A DNA stretch of 62,217 nucleotides from Pseudorhodobacter antarcticus. GTDB taxonomy: Bacteria; Pseudomonadota; Alphaproteobacteria; Rhodobacterales; Rhodobacteraceae. This document shows, piece after piece, positions 18,514-49,857 of the stretch. The DNA is taken from assembly GCF_900110135.1 (NCBI RefSeq), contig NZ_FOCO01000020.1, forward strand, positions 1 through 62,217, read 5' to 3'. Numbering within the stretch: position 1 is the first letter of the stretch; each line of letters begins with the position of its first letter. A program made the translations under genes and the position numbers. A model generated the notes under the pieces. That model was not told the origin of the DNA. It did no database searches and saw only the letters and a list, made by a program, of their open reading frames with translations.

Positions 18514-18590
18514 GGGCCTGTAGCTCAACTGGTTAGAGCAGGGCGCTCATAACGCCTTGGTTGCGGGTTCAAGTCCTGCCGGGCCTACCA
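18514..18590 (+). tRNA. tRNA with CAT anticodon (tRNA-Ile2 or elongator tRNA-Met)
   Basis: 77 nt with encoded CCA. Acceptor GGGCCTG pairs with CGGGCCT (two G-U pairs). The D arm is TAGCTCAACTGGTTAGAGC, the anticodon loop CTCATAA has CAT at 18548-18550, and the T arm is GCGGG-TTCAAGT-CCTGC. The 1:72 pair excludes initiator tRNA. The sequence resembles alphaproteobacterial isoleucine tRNA read with lysidine, but the two CAT classes cannot be separated by eye. The 3' end is the prophage attachment site and stays intact after integration. Confidence 0.92.
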
Positions 18591-19888: not shown

Positions 19889-20051
19889 TGGTTAGCCTCC
19901 GAATAGCGGTTGTGTTGTCACAGTGTCGTAGCCTGTATAAGCTGCGGATGGCACGAACAGCAGTACGTCGGATGGCCCATTGGCGGGTATCTCCGGCATA
20001 CCGCGCCCGGTTCAAGAGTGTCTTGATCCGGGCCACGATGATGTGGTTCAT
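19881..20051 (-). CDS. Small arginine-rich protein
   Basis: 56 residues starting MNHIIVARIKTLLNRARYA, with about a fifth of residues Arg or Lys. The start ATG shares its A with the dnaN stop (TGATG), and its 3' end overlaps the next gene, so it sits inside a translationally coupled string. A DNA-binding role beside the integrase would fit but is not shown by any motif. Confidence 0.5.
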   Translation of the reverse strand: MNHIIVARIKTLLNRARYAGDTRQWAIRRTAVRAIRSLYRLRHCDNTTAIRRLTSA

Positions 20052-21283
20052 CAGTAGCGCATCGGCATAACAATACGCACACCTTCAATGTAGCAATCTG
20101 CGTTCCATCCCCAGGACACACCTTGAAAACGGATGGGTGATCCCTCGTCCCAAGTGAAGTGAACGACACCACAATCAGAGAACGCCGCAAGAGCGTCCTT
20201 AAGATAGGCCGGGTTCACCCCGAAGCCGTCAAGCACAGTGTTGCAGTCGTCGGCGTCCTTGACCTGCTCTGCGACATCAGTGAAGGTCAGCGCCAGCGTG
20301 GTAGGCTCGTTGCCGTTCTTTGCGCCGACGGTGTTTTCACGGGTGTCCACATGGATTGCCCCGCCTTGCTTGCCAAGAACGCCCACCAGCCGGGTGATCG
20401 CCTTCTGTGCGTCATCTACATTCACCCCGGCAAAGCCCTTGCCCAGCGAAGGAATGACGCGGGTGTAGTCGGGGAACGTCCCGTCGATGTGTTTTGACAC
20501 CACCGACCATTGTTCGTGCTCCACCTTCACAAAGATCGGGCCAATCGTCAGTTGCACATAGCCTGTCGCCTTCTTGCCAAGTGCGCTGATCACAGTGTTC
20601 ACCGCCTTCTTGGGCCAGATGATGCCATCGCTATTCCACGGGCCGCGTCCCTCGGTAACAGGCCAAGCGTGGTCTGTGTCCATGATCCCTAGCTTGTGGC
20701 CGTCCGTGGCAACTGCACTCAGAACGCCCCGGCGGGAGTTCAGGAAGACGCCGTTGAGGTAGTACCGGGTTTCCTCAGTGCTGATGCACGGCGCAATGAA
20801 GCCAAGCCACGCAGCCATACGCGCTGCGGTCATGTGAAAGACAACCGCCGTGGGTGATGGCTTCATGTAGGGCATGTCCACAGGGAAGTCGCAGACGGGC
20901 AGGGCTTGCAGCTTTGAAACCATACCGTCCGCAGACACCACAACCCGGCCCGCTGGCTCGTCATCTACAGCTTCAATGGCGAAGGACACCAGACAGCCCT
21001 TGTTCGCGCCCTTGATGGCACGTTGCAGGCTGTCAGCGGTCACTGTGAACGCCTGATGCTCAGGCACAAAGCCGCCGCCCAGCCCTGTCAGCCGCCAAGT
21101 CGCGGTCTGGTCCAGATCGGTTGCCTGCATGGTGCCATCACCGGGGAACAGGATGTTGGCGAGGATGGGGATGTGCTTGTGCTTCTCAAGCGTCCGCATC
21201 AGGAACGCTACGCCAGCAGTGAGGTCAGCGTGCTCAACGTACAGCGACATATACTGTGTGTTCATGGGGGTCATATCATTCAT
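20051..21283 (-). CDS. dnaN: DNA polymerase III beta sliding clamp homologue (DnaN), phage-encoded
   Basis: 410 residues, somewhat longer than bacterial DnaN (about 370). Characteristic segments: HIPILANILF in domain 1, EETRYYLNGVFLN near residue 170 followed by LSAVATDGHKLGIMD, FPDYTRVIPS, and the C-terminal VRIVMPMRY that matches the VMPMR ending of bacterial clamps. The clamp tethers polymerases to DNA. It lies in the left arm, far from the phage polymerase at 52.5 kb. The ATG at 21283 is preceded by the conserved GAGCCTGAGAAC stem-loop leader. A clamp is unusual in a T7-type phage, where host thioredoxin is the processivity factor. Confidence 0.88.
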   Translation of the reverse strand: MNDMTPMNTQYMSLYVEHADLTAGVAFLMRTLEKHKHIPILANILFPGDGTMQATDLDQTATWRLTGLGGGFVPEHQAFTVTADSLQRAIKGANKGCLVSFAIEAVDDEPAGRVVVSADGMVSKLQALPVCDFPVDMPYMKPSPTAVVFHMTAARMAAWLGFIAPCISTEETRYYLNGVFLNSRRGVLSAVATDGHKLGIMDTDHAWPVTEGRGPWNSDGIIWPKKAVNTVISALGKKATGYVQLTIGPIFVKVEHEQWSVVSKHIDGTFPDYTRVIPSLGKGFAGVNVDDAQKAITRLVGVLGKQGGAIHVDTRENTVGAKNGNEPTTLALTFTDVAEQVKDADDCNTVLDGFGVNPAYLKDALAAFSDCGVVHFTWDEGSPIRFQGVSWGWNADCYIEGVRIVMPMRY

Positions 21284-21300
21284 GGTGTTCTCAGGCTCCA
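21283..21300 (-). promoter_or_regulatory. Leader motif copy 1 (GAGCCTGAGAAC), dnaN
   Basis: The minus strand reads TGG-AGCCTGAGAACA-CCA at the dnaN start codon. The 12-nt loop is identical to copy 4, but the stem here is only 3 bp. Confidence 0.5.
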
Positions 21301-21301
21301 A

Positions 21302-23667: not shown

Positions 23668-24231
23668 TTACTCAGCGGTAACTGGCATGGTGCGGCCAAT
23701 GGAAGCCTTAGCAGCAGCTTCCACATTAAAGGCATCCACAGCCCGGTTGATCGCCAACAACAATTCTGGGTTGATCTCATCCCCCTTGTCAGCAGTCAGA
23801 CGGTCCCCACCGCGCTTCAACAACTTAGTGAGGTCAGCGGCAAAGTTCATTGGCTTGTAAGGGGCTTCCGGCTTCATCTCAAACCAACGCTTGTTCTTGA
23901 TTGCCTCCATATCCAAGGCATCAGCCTTCACACCCTTTGGGGCATAGAATTTGCCCTTATTGTCGCCTTCCTCGGCCACCGCCAACAACAAGCACATTTC
24001 AGCCCATTCCCGGATTGCATTGGAGCGCACACCCTTGGGCATATCCTCCAACAAGGCATTGATCTGGACAACAACAGGCCGCACATCGCCGCAAGCTTTC
24101 CACTTGATCGCAATGGCGACCAAGATAAGGTGGGTGTTCAGTTGGGCAGAGTTGTGCTCTGCGTGGTTCGCTGTGATTGCCGCCATGATAGCGGTATCGG
24201 TCAACAAGGCGTTGTAATTGATCTGTGTCAT
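23668..24231 (-). CDS. Conserved phage protein of unknown function
   Basis: 187 residues starting MTQINYNALLTDTAIMAAI, alpha-helical, with KGKFYAPKGVKADALDMEAIKNKRW cleft by charged residues. It looks like widespread phage proteins without assigned function. I chose ATG 24231. An in-frame ATG at 24249 would add MEPENT but lies inside the repeated leader motif. A GGGCC/GGCCC hairpin follows the stop near 23640. Confidence 0.65.
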   Translation of the reverse strand: MTQINYNALLTDTAIMAAITANHAEHNSAQLNTHLILVAIAIKWKACGDVRPVVVQINALLEDMPKGVRSNAIREWAEMCLLLAVAEEGDNKGKFYAPKGVKADALDMEAIKNKRWFEMKPEAPYKPMNFAADLTKLLKRGGDRLTADKGDEINPELLLAINRAVDAFNVEAAAKASIGRTMPVTAE

Positions 24232-24307: not shown

Positions 24308-24475
24308 CTATCTCATTCCTACTTCACATAGTTTGTCTGCATACCGGGTAGCGCCGAACCGGGCTTCAATCGACACACTACCCGCCACCTTAACGCTACG
24401 CTTGCACTTGGCACTCACATAAACCTTGCGCTTAGGTGGCGCTAGCTTGCGCTTTGCCTTGATGCTAAACTCCAT
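24308..24475 (-). CDS. Small basic protein
   Basis: 55 residues (MEFSIKAKRKLAPPKRKVYV...) with many Lys and Arg in the N-terminal half. A strong AGGAGG stands 5 bp before the ATG. It is the first gene after the large gene-free region and could bind nucleic acid, perhaps the RNA or DNA element upstream (inference). Confidence 0.55.
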   Translation of the reverse strand: MEFSIKAKRKLAPPKRKVYVSAKCKRSVKVAGSVSIEARFGATRYADKLCEVGMR

Positions 24476-24906
24476 GTCATCCTCCTACTTGAATTATAGA
24501 TAGACCTATCAGGCCCATGTATAATGCAACTTAGTTGCTACAGTCATATCCGGTACTTTCCTGACTGTCGTTACCCCGCATAGTATCTGGGAAGCGTTAG
24601 CAATCCCTTCAACCTCCACTAGGTGGCCCTGTCAGTTAGTCTACCGTTGCTGGGCATGATGTAAACACCCCGGCTCCCCCATTGGGTTCGCCCGCTTTCC
24701 ACATCAGGCTTCCCCTAGTGTACTAATCGCAACTGTTATGCGGGCTAGGGCTTAAACCTAGTCTATATTACCCGGTTGTAGCTACGGGCTTTCACCCTAG
24801 CCGCTACACTAGCTATTTAGCAATGTGGGGAAGTTGTCACGCAACCACCACGCCAACAAAGAGCACACGTTATAGCCGCTACGCTATTATTCTATACCTG
24901 CTAGTA

Positions 24907-25082
24907 GGTTGCCGCTTGCGCCTGCCCTAGCTTTCCCGGTTTATCGTCCGGTCGTTCACGTTGCAACCTATTATGGACGGTGTAAGCAACTAATCCAGAG
25001 GGTATTTGCGCCGTTAGGCTATAGTTCCCACGTTCTACCGTATAGCTTGGAAAGTCTTTCCCGGTTGCCGCTTTCGCCTGCC
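24907..25082 (-). repeat. Duplicated GNRA-hairpin module inside the candidate RNA
   Basis: A 20-mer GGCAGGCGNAAGCGGCAACC (minus strand) occurs at 25063-25082 with loop GAAA and at 24907-24926 with loop GCAA. ACCGGGAAAG also occurs twice close by (24931-24940, 25055-25064). Confidence 0.7.
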
Positions 25083-25212
25083 GTTCTGTCTTTCCGTGAT
25101 CTAGTTATAGCCCGTTCTTTTCCTAGCTTGCAAGCGATTATTTGCAGATATACTAAACTATCTCCTAACGCATTGATTTGCATAGATATAAACCGGATAA
25201 ATGATAGGCTAT

Positions 25213-25245
25213 AGCTAGGTAAAAGCTAGGTATAAGCTAGGCATA
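25213..25245. repeat. Three tandem 11-bp repeats in an AT-rich stretch
   Basis: AGCTAGGTAAA, AGCTAGGTATA and AGCTAGGCATA follow each other without gap. They are helically phased like iterons and next to an AT-rich segment. Confidence 0.6.
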
Positions 25246-25380
25246 GCATAGTAAAAAGACCGGATTAGGGATGTATCAAAGCCTGATTTGCATGGCGGGG
25301 ATAGCATAGCGCCCGGATAGCACCGGGGCAGGGATAGGGCATGGTATCGGATAGCATCGGGATAAGCCGGGCTTGGCTTG

Positions 25381-25415
25381 CCACTCGTCACGGTGGATGT
25401 AACAGATACAAAGAT
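25381..25415 (-). promoter_or_regulatory. Conserved leader element after promoter (a)
   Basis: On the minus strand ATCTTTGTATCTGTTACA is followed by the hairpin CCAC-CGTGACGA-GTGG. A second copy at 47329-47364 has CCGC/GCGG in the stem with the same loop. Both lie just downstream of promoter-like 19-mers. Confidence 0.55.
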
Positions 25416-25434
25416 TTGAATATATCCGCCTATG

Positions 25435-25453
25435 GTCTTAGGACGACGGGATA
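25435..25453 (-). promoter_or_regulatory. Candidate phage-RNA-polymerase promoter (a)
   Basis: The minus strand reads TATCCCGTCGTCCTAAGAC. It is identical to the copy at 47278-47296 and nearly so to 32319-32337. It points at the candidate noncoding RNA and the left-arm genes. Confidence 0.55.
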
Positions 25454-26005
25454 AGCAAGGGCAGGGTATTGGATAGGCCAGATCAAAGCCGGGATAGGGC
25501 TGGATATGGTCAAATCAAAGGCAATAGATACACCAACGGGCACGCATTGCCCTGACATATCCCCAAAACGCCCTAAATGCGCCCAAATAGCGCCACCACG
25601 GCCCCTAGTCGTGATTTAACCTAGTCCTACCGCCCATCGGGCTAGTTGACGCTGTATGCGCCGCGTTTGGGCATTGGCTAACCATATCGGGCTAACTTAT
25701 CAGGATGTAAGCGTGAATAGCCTTGTTTCATTGGGTATTATGCCAATGGGTTCAAGGCCACGTTGGTCTAACAGGATGCAAAGCGCGGCGGCCTAGCTAT
25801 TGTCAAAGGATAAGACGCATGATGCGCCCGGATATTGTCCACGCGTGGTCTATACTGCGCGCGAGGGGGGGGTATGGGGGAAACGTGGTCGCGGAGAGGT
25901 ATAGACACCCGCTCGTAAAAATGTGTCGGAAATTGTTAAACCTTAGTTACTGTTGATACATAACCTAGATGAAGGTACGGAGGGGGCGGGTGGGTAATAT
26001 AGTGC
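25454..26005. other. Gene-free stretch with inverted repeats
   Basis: No credible gene. Seen here: an 8-bp inverted repeat GTCTATAC (25848-25855) and GTATAGAC (25899-25906) enclosing a run of eight G, the palindrome CCACGCGTGG (25839-25848), a GCGCATCATGCGTC palindrome near 25816-25828, and repeated AGGATGYAA...GCG words. This may belong to a replication origin or packaging region. Confidence 0.4.
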
Positions 26006-26034
26006 TTGACCTGTGATTAGTCATGTTGTAGATA
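26006..26034 (+). promoter_or_regulatory. Possible host sigma-70 promoter on the plus strand
   Basis: TTGACC, 17 bp, TAGATA. It points away from the gene-free region towards the hairpin at 26073-26111. The -35 box is good and the -10 box weak. Confidence 0.3.
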
Positions 26035-26040
26035 GCAGTG

Positions 26041-26117
26041 GTCACGCAACCGCCCCACAAGGCAGTTCGTAGGAATACCCCAGCGTGCTCTCAGGCTCCG
26101 CTGGGGTATTCTTTATT
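26041..26117 (+). ncRNA. Possible small antisense RNA with complementary loop
   Basis: A transcript from the promoter above would end in a perfect 13-bp stem (26073-26085 with 26099-26111) followed by TTTATT. It would display the loop TGCTCTCAGGCTC, whose TCTCAGGCTC is complementary to the GAGCCTGAGA present in the minus-strand leader motifs. No expression evidence. Confidence 0.3.
26073..26111 (-). terminator. 13-bp perfect hairpin after the lysis genes; motif copy 5 in its loop
   Basis: GAATACCCCAGCG pairs with CGCTGGGGTATTC around a 13-nt loop that reads GAGCCTGAGAGCA on the minus strand. It follows the outer spanin stop by 10 bp. A T-rich tail is seen only on the plus strand, so for the minus strand it may be a processing or regulatory hairpin more than an intrinsic terminator. 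Confidence 0.5.
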
Positions 26118-26120
26118 AAG

Positions 26121-26303
26121 CTAGGGTGTCCATCCGCAGATGCGCTGGCCCTTGACGTTGTGCGTAAGTATCTGCCGCGATAGGTCAATGGATAGGATGT
26201 CGCCTGTGGTCGGCCTAATGGGCTTATCCCAGCAGTTGCTATTTACGCATCCACTTAGCAAGAGCATCCCGCACAGCAGCATCATCTTTGCTCTGGATTT
26301 CAT
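26121..26303 (-). CDS. Outer-membrane spanin lipoprotein (Rz1-like)
   Basis: 60 residues with a lipoprotein signal peptide and lipobox LLLSGC, then a short periplasmic part. It overlaps the 3' end of the inner spanin gene in another frame, the classical nested Rz/Rz1 layout. Together they fuse inner and outer membranes at the last step of lysis. Confidence 0.75.
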   Translation of the reverse strand: MKSRAKMMLLCGMLLLSGCVNSNCWDKPIRPTTGDILSIDLSRQILTHNVKGQRICGWTP

Positions 26304-26475
26304 CGTCCACCTCCTTTGCTGTGATTAAATCCTGGGAAACCTGCTCAGAGGCGTCAATCCGGGCGTTCTGAGTGCCTTCACGGCGTCCCATGACCCAGAG
26401 GCCCCCACCCACGGCAAGAGCACCCAGCGCCCACGCTAGGAACGCCCAGACCTCCGCCGGGATTAAAGCCATCAT
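26239..26475 (-). CDS. Inner-membrane spanin (Rz-like)
   Basis: 78 residues: one N-terminal membrane helix (VWAFLAWALGALAVGGGLWVM) followed by a charged helical periplasmic domain. This is the expected build of an i-spanin, though short. Its start overlaps the stop of the preceding small membrane gene, and the o-spanin gene overlaps its end. Confidence 0.7.
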   Translation of the reverse strand: MMALIPAEVWAFLAWALGALAVGGGLWVMGRREGTQNARIDASEQVSQDLITAKEVDDEIQSKDDAAVRDALAKWMRK

Positions 26476-47328: not shown

Positions 47329-47364
47329 CCGCTCGTCACGGCGGGCTGTAACAGATACAAAGAT
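47329..47364 (-). promoter_or_regulatory. Conserved leader element after promoter (d)
   Basis: ATCTTTGTATCTGTTACA and hairpin CCGC-CGTGACGA-GCGG on the minus strand, matching 25381-25415 with a compensated stem change. It contains ATCTGTT, the T7 RNA polymerase pause/termination heptamer. Confidence 0.55.
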
Positions 47365-47372
47365 CGACTTTT

Positions 47373-47391
47373 GTCTTAGGACTATGGGTTA
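47373..47391 (-). promoter_or_regulatory. Candidate phage-RNA-polymerase promoter (d), divergent copy
   Basis: Minus strand TAACCCATAGTCCTAAGAC shares CCC and GTCCTAAGAC with the other copies and overlaps the stop codon of the RNA polymerase gene. Confidence 0.45.
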
Positions 47392-49857
47392 ACCAAAGAA
47401 GAACTCGGATTTGAGGACATCTTCGATCTGCAAAGTCCCACGGGCAGGCAGGGCAGGCAGGGTAATACCGTGGCGTTCCTCGTGTGCTATCTTGAAGTCA
47501 GCAAGCACATCATGGTCGCCATGCAGCTTAACAAACTGTTCTCGTATGATCCGGTGCCATTGCTTGATGTCACAGGCATGAACACCGAAGTCATCATGGA
47601 TCATGGCAAAGGAAGTGATACCGGCCTCTGCACCTGCATTAAGGCACATCTGCATGTGGCAGGCATCTACATGGTGTACTAGGTTCGGGCTGCTGCCCTG
47701 TCGCTGCTTACGCGCGCTCAACTCGTCGGTGTCCTCAGCCATGCTAAGGCACAGCCGCCCGGAAATCTGGGTTTCAATGTTCCGGGTCTTGTAGTTGTAC
47801 GTTGCCTGATACACTGGAAAGCCAAGTGGGCTTGTGTACTCTAGAGGATGACCTGCCTTGGCAAGTATCCCGGCACACTCCTGAACCCAGTCCATCGCCT
47901 GCCTAGCGGCGACCACCACTTCCCCAATGCTTCCCCATATGATTGGGCTGAGGTACATGGAGTGCCGGAAGTTCGTGCTCTTGTCGAAGAAGTCGGGGGC
48001 TGTGTCTTGCAACCAACGAAAGATGCTGTCGGTACACGCCTGCCGCGTTGACCCATACGGCATGGTCATTACAGGCGGCTTGGGTAGCTTGCGGGGAATA
48101 CCGGGCAGGTCCATGCTTTCAAACAGCGCCATCCAGTTCACAGCCCCCGCGTGGTGCTCGTCGTTTAGGCTACGCAGCCCGATCAGCTTGCGAGTAGCAA
48201 CATCACCTACGTTCTGGTAGATGTCTGCTGGCACCTTCATCGGGATCAGGTTCACCGCCGCGCCGCCAATGCTGTCACGCAGCATGGCTGAGAAGTGCTG
48301 TAGCCCGTTGCAGCTACCATCCAGCGCCACAGGGAGGTGCGACACAAACGCAGCGCCGTGTTCAACAGCCCCGGCATATTCCAAGCAGAACGCAAGGAAC
48401 TGGTATGGCTTATCGGCGTCCTTCCAATGGTCGCGGGCTGACACGGGGTCTTCGGCCACGGCCAACCAAAGCGCAGCGTTGTCGTCAATCCACTTTACGC
48501 GGTCGGGGTAGTCCATCTTGTCTTTGCCGTATTTGTTGGCACCATGAACCTTCAACCAGAACAAGCCGTCTTGGCCTAGTGCCTTGCCCTCGTGAAAGCG
48601 TAGCAGCGCCTTGCCGTGATCTGTACCCTGCGGCGACAGCCCTGTGGTTGCTGCGTACACCCGGCCCCGAAAGTCACACTGGTACACATAGTAGAACACG
48701 CTGTAATCCGTGAGCGTGCCAGCCATCCGCATTGTCCGGGTAAGCGCAAGGTTCTTTGCTACCCGTTCCCGCTCTATGATGTGTATCTCGCGGGCGTTGA
48801 TCTTCCAGTTCAGGAACGCCTCTTTACGGGGGTCTGTCTCTGTCAGGGCCGATGGGTCGTCTTCGGCGCTCAAGGGGCTGGGCGGCACCTCGTAGGGCTG
48901 GGAACGCGGCATCCCGATACCAAGGTCTTTGTGCCAGACTTCCCGCATCACTTCTAGGATCGGGGTGTTCAATTCCCATCCTGTATTCTGCATGGCGTTG
49001 ATCGCTGTAAACACCTTCGACATATCTGCGGTGGCAAATAATGCCGCCTGTGCTGATCCAGATTTACCGCGCATCTTAACAAGCGGGGTGCGGCTGCGTA
49101 GGGCGGGGCTGTAGTAGCCCCCATCGCTTATTGCACACCAGTCTTGCGGCGGGACGACACAAGGCATCCTGTCGGGGTGCGCTAACTCCATCTGCTCATT
49201 GTGCTGCATCACCCAATCAACACAAGCCTGTGTCGGTACGACTGATACTTCCTTGCGGTTGTTGCCAAGGTTCACGATCTTCTTTTCAATCAGGTCGCAG
49301 ACTTCCATCATCAAGCCGATAACCGTAGCGCCCACGCCTAGCTGTTCCTCTTTCAGCCACTCGCGCCAAACCTGCTCCTTGCTGGATTGTGCATGGCTAA
49401 GGGCACGCTTCTGATAGCGGTAGTTCGTGCTGCCTCTGGCTTCAAACTGTCTGATGATTTCCGCGTAGTATTCCTTGTGCTCTGTCTCAAACTTCATAAA
49501 GCGCAAGTCGTCTTCGATTACCTTCCCTATGTTAATGCAAAGTGACTGCAACGATTGCGGATTAAACATGGCGGCAATGACTGCCTTGAGTGCCATGAGT
49601 GCTGCTTTATCAGTGTTGACGGTGGCAAGGAGTTTGGCGTACTTCCCACGCCTGCGCCCATCGGGATGCTTCCCGGCTAGGTACAGGCTGATGTGGTCAG
49701 AGATTTGCAAGACATAGCTACGCAAAAGGCGACTGCCCGCAGATGTTTCATGCGTGCGGTCGCCCTTGATTGCTGCGTCCTGTTGAGCACGGTATCTGCT
49801 GACACCATGATCGACCATCGTTCCTTCCCATGACAACTGGTCATGGATTGTGGGCAT
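47389..49857 (-). CDS. Single-subunit DNA-dependent RNA polymerase (T7 gp1-like)
   Basis: 822 residues (T7: 883). Motif A ALDGSCNGLQHFSAM with the catalytic Asp near 511, motif B RKLPKPPVMTMPYGST near 595-605, motif C MIHDDFGVHA near 754, and a terminal aromatic FFFG like the T7 FAFA foot. It transcribes phage middle and late genes from its own promoters. Four candidate promoters are listed here. It follows the replication genes, later than in T7 but as in some other Autographiviridae. Confidence 0.95.
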   Translation of the reverse strand: MPTIHDQLSWEGTMVDHGVSRYRAQQDAAIKGDRTHETSAGSRLLRSYVLQISDHISLYLAGKHPDGRRRGKYAKLLATVNTDKAALMALKAVIAAMFNPQSLQSLCINIGKVIEDDLRFMKFETEHKEYYAEIIRQFEARGSTNYRYQKRALSHAQSSKEQVWREWLKEEQLGVGATVIGLMMEVCDLIEKKIVNLGNNRKEVSVVPTQACVDWVMQHNEQMELAHPDRMPCVVPPQDWCAISDGGYYSPALRSRTPLVKMRGKSGSAQAALFATADMSKVFTAINAMQNTGWELNTPILEVMREVWHKDLGIGMPRSQPYEVPPSPLSAEDDPSALTETDPRKEAFLNWKINAREIHIIERERVAKNLALTRTMRMAGTLTDYSVFYYVYQCDFRGRVYAATTGLSPQGTDHGKALLRFHEGKALGQDGLFWLKVHGANKYGKDKMDYPDRVKWIDDNAALWLAVAEDPVSARDHWKDADKPYQFLAFCLEYAGAVEHGAAFVSHLPVALDGSCNGLQHFSAMLRDSIGGAAVNLIPMKVPADIYQNVGDVATRKLIGLRSLNDEHHAGAVNWMALFESMDLPGIPRKLPKPPVMTMPYGSTRQACTDSIFRWLQDTAPDFFDKSTNFRHSMYLSPIIWGSIGEVVVAARQAMDWVQECAGILAKAGHPLEYTSPLGFPVYQATYNYKTRNIETQISGRLCLSMAEDTDELSARKQRQGSSPNLVHHVDACHMQMCLNAGAEAGITSFAMIHDDFGVHACDIKQWHRIIREQFVKLHGDHDVLADFKIAHEERHGITLPALPARGTLQIEDVLKSEFFFG

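Follow-up and report, generated by a model that had tools for sequence, protein, structure and literature searches.

Which function does the long gene-free gap of the Pseudorhodobacter antarcticus prophage fulfil, and does it encode an RNA? The window, i.e. the whole stretch of DNA that was analysed (62,217 nucleotides, contig NZ_FOCO01000020.1), carries this prophage with its gap. An initial annotation had proposed there a large ornate noncoding RNA on the minus strand, possibly akin to the giant phage RNAs GOLLD and ROOL. The gap was therefore compared with its own shuffled sequence, with related phages and with known RNA families.

The prophage and its gene-free gap

As judged from its genes, the prophage is a temperate T7-like element. 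It is bracketed by 20-bp att repeats (GTCCTGCCGGGCCTACCATT) at 18573 and 61846, the first of which is the 3' end of a tRNA-Met gene; this gene, the sole tRNA gene detected in the window, is the attachment site. The minus strand, along which the examined phage genes on either side of the gap are read, encodes a DNA polymerase, a phage RNA polymerase, a head-tail adaptor (portal), a scaffold and a major head protein. It also encodes tail proteins, internal virion proteins, a tail fibre, a small terminase, an integrase, a large terminase with a T7 RNase-H-like domain and a chitinase-like lysin. The T7-type terminase, the phage RNA polymerase and the internal virion proteins expected alongside a T7-like left end are all present, and a predicted host-type early promoter precedes the first early gene. 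The closest large terminases are those of MedPE-SWcel-C56 (C56), ParMal1 and ParKuw1 (62-65% identity to that of the window). Among genomes of the same family, two of 394 have a match to this protein: its own genome and one encoding a 37% identical terminase.

In the early part, a gene at 20051-21301 (minus strand) matches DNA_pol3_beta_2, the central domain of the bacterial sliding clamp; to our knowledge, genes of this type are unusual in T7-like phages. The motif GAGCCTGAGAA is found five times on the minus strand (21298, 22313, 23535, 24246 and 59874) and also in a terminator loop near 26099. By eye, some copies stand before a start codon and others in a hairpin loop; a similar motif precedes a gene in the phage sequence L020 and lies within a terminator in L005.

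The gap spans 24476-26120 (1645 nt), between an o-spanin-like ORF that ends at 26121 and a 55-aa ORF that starts at 24475. The initial annotation, which described about 0.9 kb of uncoded DNA (24491-25415), was correct about the lack of genes but underestimated the extent. Beyond its outer edge, two overlapping minus-strand ORFs (26121-26303 and 26239-26475) look by eye like an i-spanin whose end is overlapped by an o-spanin, the latter with a lipoprotein-like start. Gene-free gaps are found at the equivalent place in ParMal1 (1220 nt), ParKuw1 (1226 nt) and C56 (1938 nt), whose records carry no annotated feature there, and relatives of the early gene at 23668-24231 are the first gene past the gap in these three phages. 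The features of the region are collected in Table 1.

At the DNA level, the gap had no match among phages, and in 195 genomes only two matched, i.e. the window's own and one (G090) with a 36-nt patch. Searches of IMG/VR with a shared 19-mer (GGGATTGCTRACGCTTCCC) returned three stretches. One was this prophage itself; the other two, near-identical, we rejected as chance, since they lie in a coding frame, capsid-like by eye, of an unrelated phage. A 20-mer from ParKuw1/L030 was found in four contigs and a gapped pattern of the relatives' 5' core in five, none of them beyond the set already analysed.

Table 1. Coordinates of observed and predicted features in and beside the gene-free gap
Feature	Position	Strand	Remarks
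Terminus-like element (TTTCCGACACATTTTTACGAGCGGGTGTCTATACC...GTTTCCCCCATA)	25865..25934	-	Best conserved DNA of the gap
Putative direct terminal repeat, ~380 bp	25529..25905	.	Suggested by the spacing of two similar sites
TATCTGTT	25401..25408	-	Includes ATCTGTT, class II terminator word of T7 RNA polymerase
Short repeats (CCTAGCTT-type)	25136..25260	-	Between terminal repeat and early promoter; read by eye
Host sigma70-type early promoter TTGCAA-N18-TATAAC	25104..25133	-	Predicted
Leader RNA, ~620 nt, putative extent	24476..25097	-	Promoter to first early ORF; position as in structured leaders of relatives
Leader 3' domain	24466..24649	-	R2 match; related to ParKuw1, ParMal1, L030, L106 and C56
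Closing helix P6	24551..24646	-	CGGUA (24646-24642)/UACCG (24555-24551) and CUGAC (24635-24631)/GUCAG (24565-24561)
Hairpin P7 GGGAUUGCUAACGCUUCCC	24589..24607	-	Loop common to ParKuw1 and L030; stem of L030 differs
Hairpin P9	24493..24525	-	Immediately 5' of ribosome binding site
First ORF after leader (55 aa)	24308..24475	-	C-terminus resembles L017 ORF at equivalent place (by eye)
First widely conserved early gene (187 aa from given start)	23668..24231	-	Relatives in ParKuw1, ParMal1, C56, L017, L020 and L025

Candidate genome ends and a predicted early promoter

The terminus-like element was found by blastn comparison of the gap with the regions downstream of the terminase in relatives. 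By eye, it is similar to the beginning of the Rhizobium phage Paso sequence, for which a PhageTerm-predicted terminal repeat of 371 bp (1-371) is annotated, followed by gene-free DNA up to 1480 (about 1.1 kb); the window was not among the blastn matches of Paso. The left end of the virion DNA would thus be located at about 25905. Moreover, two similar sites are separated by 380 nt in the window. Such pairs, detected in five of the 15 sequences tried, are spaced by 364 nt in ParKuw1, 393-395 in L020, 356 in L047 and 275-277 in L005. PMC11617373, the source for the class II terminator word carried by TATCTGTT, reports this word from the concatemer junction of phage DNA as well. The overlapping word TATCTGT occurs in the gaps of ParKuw1, ParMal1, C56, L005, L020, L025 and others, and is absent from those of L017 and L024. 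T7 has short repeats beside its terminal repeat, and those of the CCTAGCTT type may be similar to them. The terminus-like element, its likeness to Paso, the 380-nt site pair and TATCTGTT together indicate that the outer part of the gap most likely corresponds to the joined genome ends. Positions 25381-25458 of the gap, beside TATCTGTT, have a 72% similar counterpart of 68 nt on the plus strand (47329-47396), at the 3' end of the gene for the phage RNA polymerase.

We also searched for the promoter pattern TTGCAM-N16..19-YAYARY, which was composed after the family sequences were known. It has a single match in the first 9 kb after the terminase gene of the window. The pattern is found at the start of the leader in seven of 30 sequences belonging to six lineages (window, ParKuw1, ParMal1, C56, L017, and L025 and L030 counted as one), and in each of the seven it is the sole match within up to 9 kb. 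Three others carry it elsewhere only (L106 and L006 outside the leader; L090 in the gap, 1.4 kb before the gap end) and 20 lack it. The promoter-like 19-mer that had been described at the 5' edge of the proposed RNA was not found on reading the sequence; the sigma70-type site lies instead inside, at 25133-25104. The RNA would start at about 25097. Hence, of the interval first assigned to the RNA (24491-25415), the part from about 25100 to 25415 would be repeat and genome-end DNA, and the RNA more likely extends from about 25097 to 24476.

A probable leader RNA shared with related phages

The sequence of the window, taken alone, does not distinguish itself from chance. The initial annotation had seen many short perfect helices with GNRA loops in one orientation only. 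In 24491-25415, the minus strand has one GNRA hairpin (at least 4 pairs, GU allowed), compared with a mean of 0.52 in 200 dinucleotide shuffles, 80 of which had as many; the plus strand has none (shuffle mean 0.30), and with Watson-Crick pairs only there are none on either strand. Likewise, the nine hairpins of at least five Watson-Crick pairs are matched or exceeded by 75 of the 200 shuffles (mean 7.83). About 26 chance 7-bp long-range pairings are expected by arithmetic in 925 nt, so that the single pairing reported is uninformative alone. Folding z-scores are -0.51 (minus) and -0.82 (plus) for 24476-25435 and, on the minus strand, -1.29 for 24476-24900, -1.15 for 24476-25120 and -0.98 for the last 420 nt of the leader. 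In a minus-strand scan of 200 nt, no segment wholly within the leader falls below -1.21; one across its 5' edge (25030-25229) reaches -2.30, and the lowest scores of the whole scan (-3.85 and -3.17) are those of the terminator near 26090. Hairpin density and single-sequence folding of the window were consequently rejected as evidence.

The evidence for a structured RNA comes from the relatives. A stretch preceding the early genes is common to ParKuw1, L030 and its near copies, ParMal1 and L106. RNAalifold, applied to MAFFT alignments, predicted 98 pairs, 30 of them with double changes, from four sequences, and 96 pairs, 39 with double changes, from five; L030 and L026 being nearly identical, these represent three and four lineages, respectively. 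For the 34 helix pairs of the 5' core, 95.2% of the cells are paired in the MAFFT alignment of five relatives versus 78.9% when shuffled. Double changes affect 16 of these pairs versus 7.2, and none of 500 shuffles, which ignore relatedness, was as high. When the partners were slid, at most two pairs had double changes, a control that favours this structure because the structure was derived from those same sequences.

Furthermore, the leaders of the relatives fold well, with z-scores of -3.55 (ParKuw1), -3.26 (L030), -4.31 (L106), -3.76 (ParMal1), -4.19 (L017), -4.95 (L020) and -2.88 (L024). For the last 420 nt of the leader, eight of the nine phages surveyed have a z-score of about -2.0 or lower, the exception being the window. 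In this survey, the start of L024 was placed by eye and not by homology, and for the window, L017 and L020 a small ORF before the homologous gene was taken as the end of the leader. Mean z-scores over the nine, window included, are -3.12 for the leader, -2.49 for the antisense, -0.68 further upstream and -0.98 for coding controls. Since the antisense folds well and single coding controls also reach low values (-3.76 in L020), z-scores settle neither strand nor function. Seventeen further gap ends, defined by ORF calling and not by homology, gave a weak signal (mean -2.08 versus -1.44 for coding controls).

Three covariance models were used: R1 for the 5' core of the relatives, R2 for the 3' domain (seeds ParKuw1, L030, L026 and ParMal1, the window being left out) and R3 with the window among the seeds. 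Over 76 sources, R1 gave five matches, all seeds or their copies, and no further lineage; in the window, the 5' domain was not detectable by this model, whose best minus-strand row scored 4.7 bits. In contrast to R1, R2 matches the window at 24649-24466, i.e. just before the first early ORF, where a 3' domain is expected. Its score is modest (21.1 bits; E 0.0023 over 0.99 Mb, 1.8e-6 over 801 nt), and 40 of the 46 lettered pairs are standard. Searching 75 sources with R2 (E up to 10), from which the copy of the same prophage in IMG/VR (L004) was excluded, gave 13 rows. Four are seeds or copies (L025, L030, L011 and L010), and four lie on the opposite strand of seed leaders, because the P9 hairpin is nearly palindromic. 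Four fall in leaders of phages other than the seeds (L106, 67.2 bits; the window, 21.1 bits; C56, 20.6 bits, present in two copies, L013 and L108, and hence counted twice) and one is noise (L056, 8.2 bits, E 6.9). Therefore, all non-seed rows above noise fall in leaders.

With filters off, R2 gave 35.9 bits in C56 and 14.3 bits in L020, the latter barely above a chance row of 12.1 bits in the same contig. Its search of 390 genomes of the order returned no match and also missed the window's own genome, which makes it uninformative. R3 reached the leader of L020 at 17.4 bits (0.99 Mb searched, E 0.048) and, with filters off, that of L017 at 15.5 bits (60 kb searched, E 0.0086); the next rows in these contigs scored at most 8.6 bits. 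On L005 and L024, it gave nothing above noise. Nor did the models find anything above noise in the leaders of Paso, PP2, L112 and L040. The best row among these four and the Rhizobium stretches RHEph08 and RHph_N37, which are densely coded and may hold no leader, was in RHph_N37 (12.4 bits, E 0.043); located inside a gene, it was distrusted. In a ten-row alignment, fitted to the model and including two partial hairpin rows and one likely spurious row, 46 of 59 pairs have double changes versus 24.3 when shuffled.

Within the 3' domain, the helices are unequally supported. P7, in a stretch of 20 nt 95% identical to ParKuw1, has a pairing probability of 0.94-0.97 (0.94-0.96 in the full leader). 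The outer six pairs of P9 reach 0.88-0.99 in the full leader and 0.40-0.64 in shorter stretches, and 16 of its 21 pairs have double changes in the model-fitted alignment. P6, at 0.10-0.44 according to the stretch folded (0.12-0.15 in the full leader), does not belong to the fold that the window prefers; across seven phages, each of its four closing pairs occurs as two to four types of pair.

Because the RNAs of relatives at the same place show co-changed paired bases, the inner part of the gap probably yields a folded leader RNA. The leader of the window is best read, from these comparisons, as a divergent member of an early leader RNA family that is undescribed. It shares with the leader RNA of ParKuw1 and ParMal1 an equivalent position and the 3' domain matched by R2; it differs in that the R1 domain is undetectable and that, unlike the leader of ParKuw1, it does not fold better than its shuffles. 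We found no description of an RNA of this type in the literature searched, which largely lacked subscription journals. The proposal of a structured minus-strand RNA in the prophage gap is thus supported by the covariation and folding of relatives and by a model built without the window, but its place would be that of a leader, between the probable genome terminus and T7-like early genes.

Competing explanations and biological meaning

The left end of T7 carries a terminal repeat, early promoters and an RNase III site before gene 0.3. The window, with its T7-like genes, has in the same order a probable terminus, a gene-free leader with a predicted host promoter and a hairpin before the first early gene; it differs by an integrase and by a single recognised host promoter, of the TTGCAA-N18-TATAAC type. 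The T7 leader is not known to contain a conserved, structured RNA several hundred nucleotides long. In our view, the leader of the window is a novel structured version of a familiar element, namely the early leader found in T7-like phages. On the whole, we give a probability of about 0.6 to a reading in which the gap combines the genome ends and the early control elements of a temperate T7-like phage, with a leader RNA whose 3' domain is shared by relatives.

Some of these data would also fit a region with DNA functions only, i.e. packaging and genome-end DNA plus promoters followed by an unstructured, fast-evolving leader, the structured RNA of relatives being lost or replaced here. The chance-level folding of the window leader, the lack of an R1 match and the position of the most conserved sequence, i.e. 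of the terminus-like element, beyond the interval first proposed all agree with it; the R2 match at the expected place, the P7 loop common to ParKuw1 and the P9 hairpin before the ribosome binding site do not, and we hold this explanation to be rather unlikely. An antitermination RNA such as put of HK022, modifying the host RNA polymerase for read-through of the long early operon, would be expected directly after a host-type promoter and before that operon, with a structure kept despite sequence drift, as here. Since put RNAs are much smaller than this leader, we regard such a role as improbable.

A free-standing giant RNA of the GOLLD or ROOL type, i.e. RNA cages formed during lysis, seems very improbable to us. 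Rfam at gathering scores detected only the tRNA in the whole window and, in eight relatives, only a Hammerhead_II ribozyme outside the leader, in L017 (11002-11065, 41.8 bits, about 2 kb past the early gene). Rfam 15 at E up to 10 gave chance-level rows only, four in the window gap, one in L106 and two in ParKuw1. None was GOLLD, ROOL or OLE, so that the check proposed by the initial annotation found no match at either threshold. The RNA moreover sits behind a host-type promoter and before early genes, and the only tRNA gene detected in the window is the attachment site; the leader does not adjoin a phage tRNA island, as ROOL does. ROOL has a size near 600 nt, in which the leader resembles it. 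The prophage habitat is common to the leader, GOLLD and ROOL, and a conserved 3' part with a less conserved 5' part is also described for GOLLD, many members of which exceed 800 nt, in contrast to the leader (PMC12286853). A packaging RNA made beside the genome end would agree with the adjoining probable terminus. Phage phi29 has such an RNA. Ordinary T7-type small and large terminase subunits are present here, and Paso, whose terminase is related, has no model match; this is the explanation to which we give least credit.

Under the leader RNA reading that we prefer, the minus strand would lead from the terminus-like element and the likely terminal repeat, through short repeats and a single promoter for the host RNA polymerase, to a leader of about 620 nt. 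Upon induction or cell entry, the host polymerase would transcribe this leader first. Its 3' part would fold into the domain common to related phages, as the model and the covariation of relatives suggest, and its 5' part would have diverged past recognition. The early transcripts of T7 are cut by RNase III, and P9, before the first ribosome binding site, would most likely be cleaved by this enzyme. Such cleavage would free the leader RNA and give the early mRNA a new 5' end. The leader RNA would act mainly in cis, affecting how the early operon transcript is processed, how stable it is and when it is expressed; it may in addition act in trans on the host.

More tentatively, T7-like phages of alphaproteobacteria might carry an undescribed class of structured RNAs of 350-620 nt, transcribed from the first host promoter, released by RNase III and composed of a slowly evolving 3' core and a rapidly replaced 5' domain. 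These would act early in trans, for instance on the host RNA polymerase or ribosomes; we consider this wider proposal doubtful at present. Since covariation is observed in isolated Paracoccus phages, the leader RNA idea is directly testable. If a conserved folded RNA is indeed encoded at this place, the first product of infection in these phages would be an RNA and not a protein.
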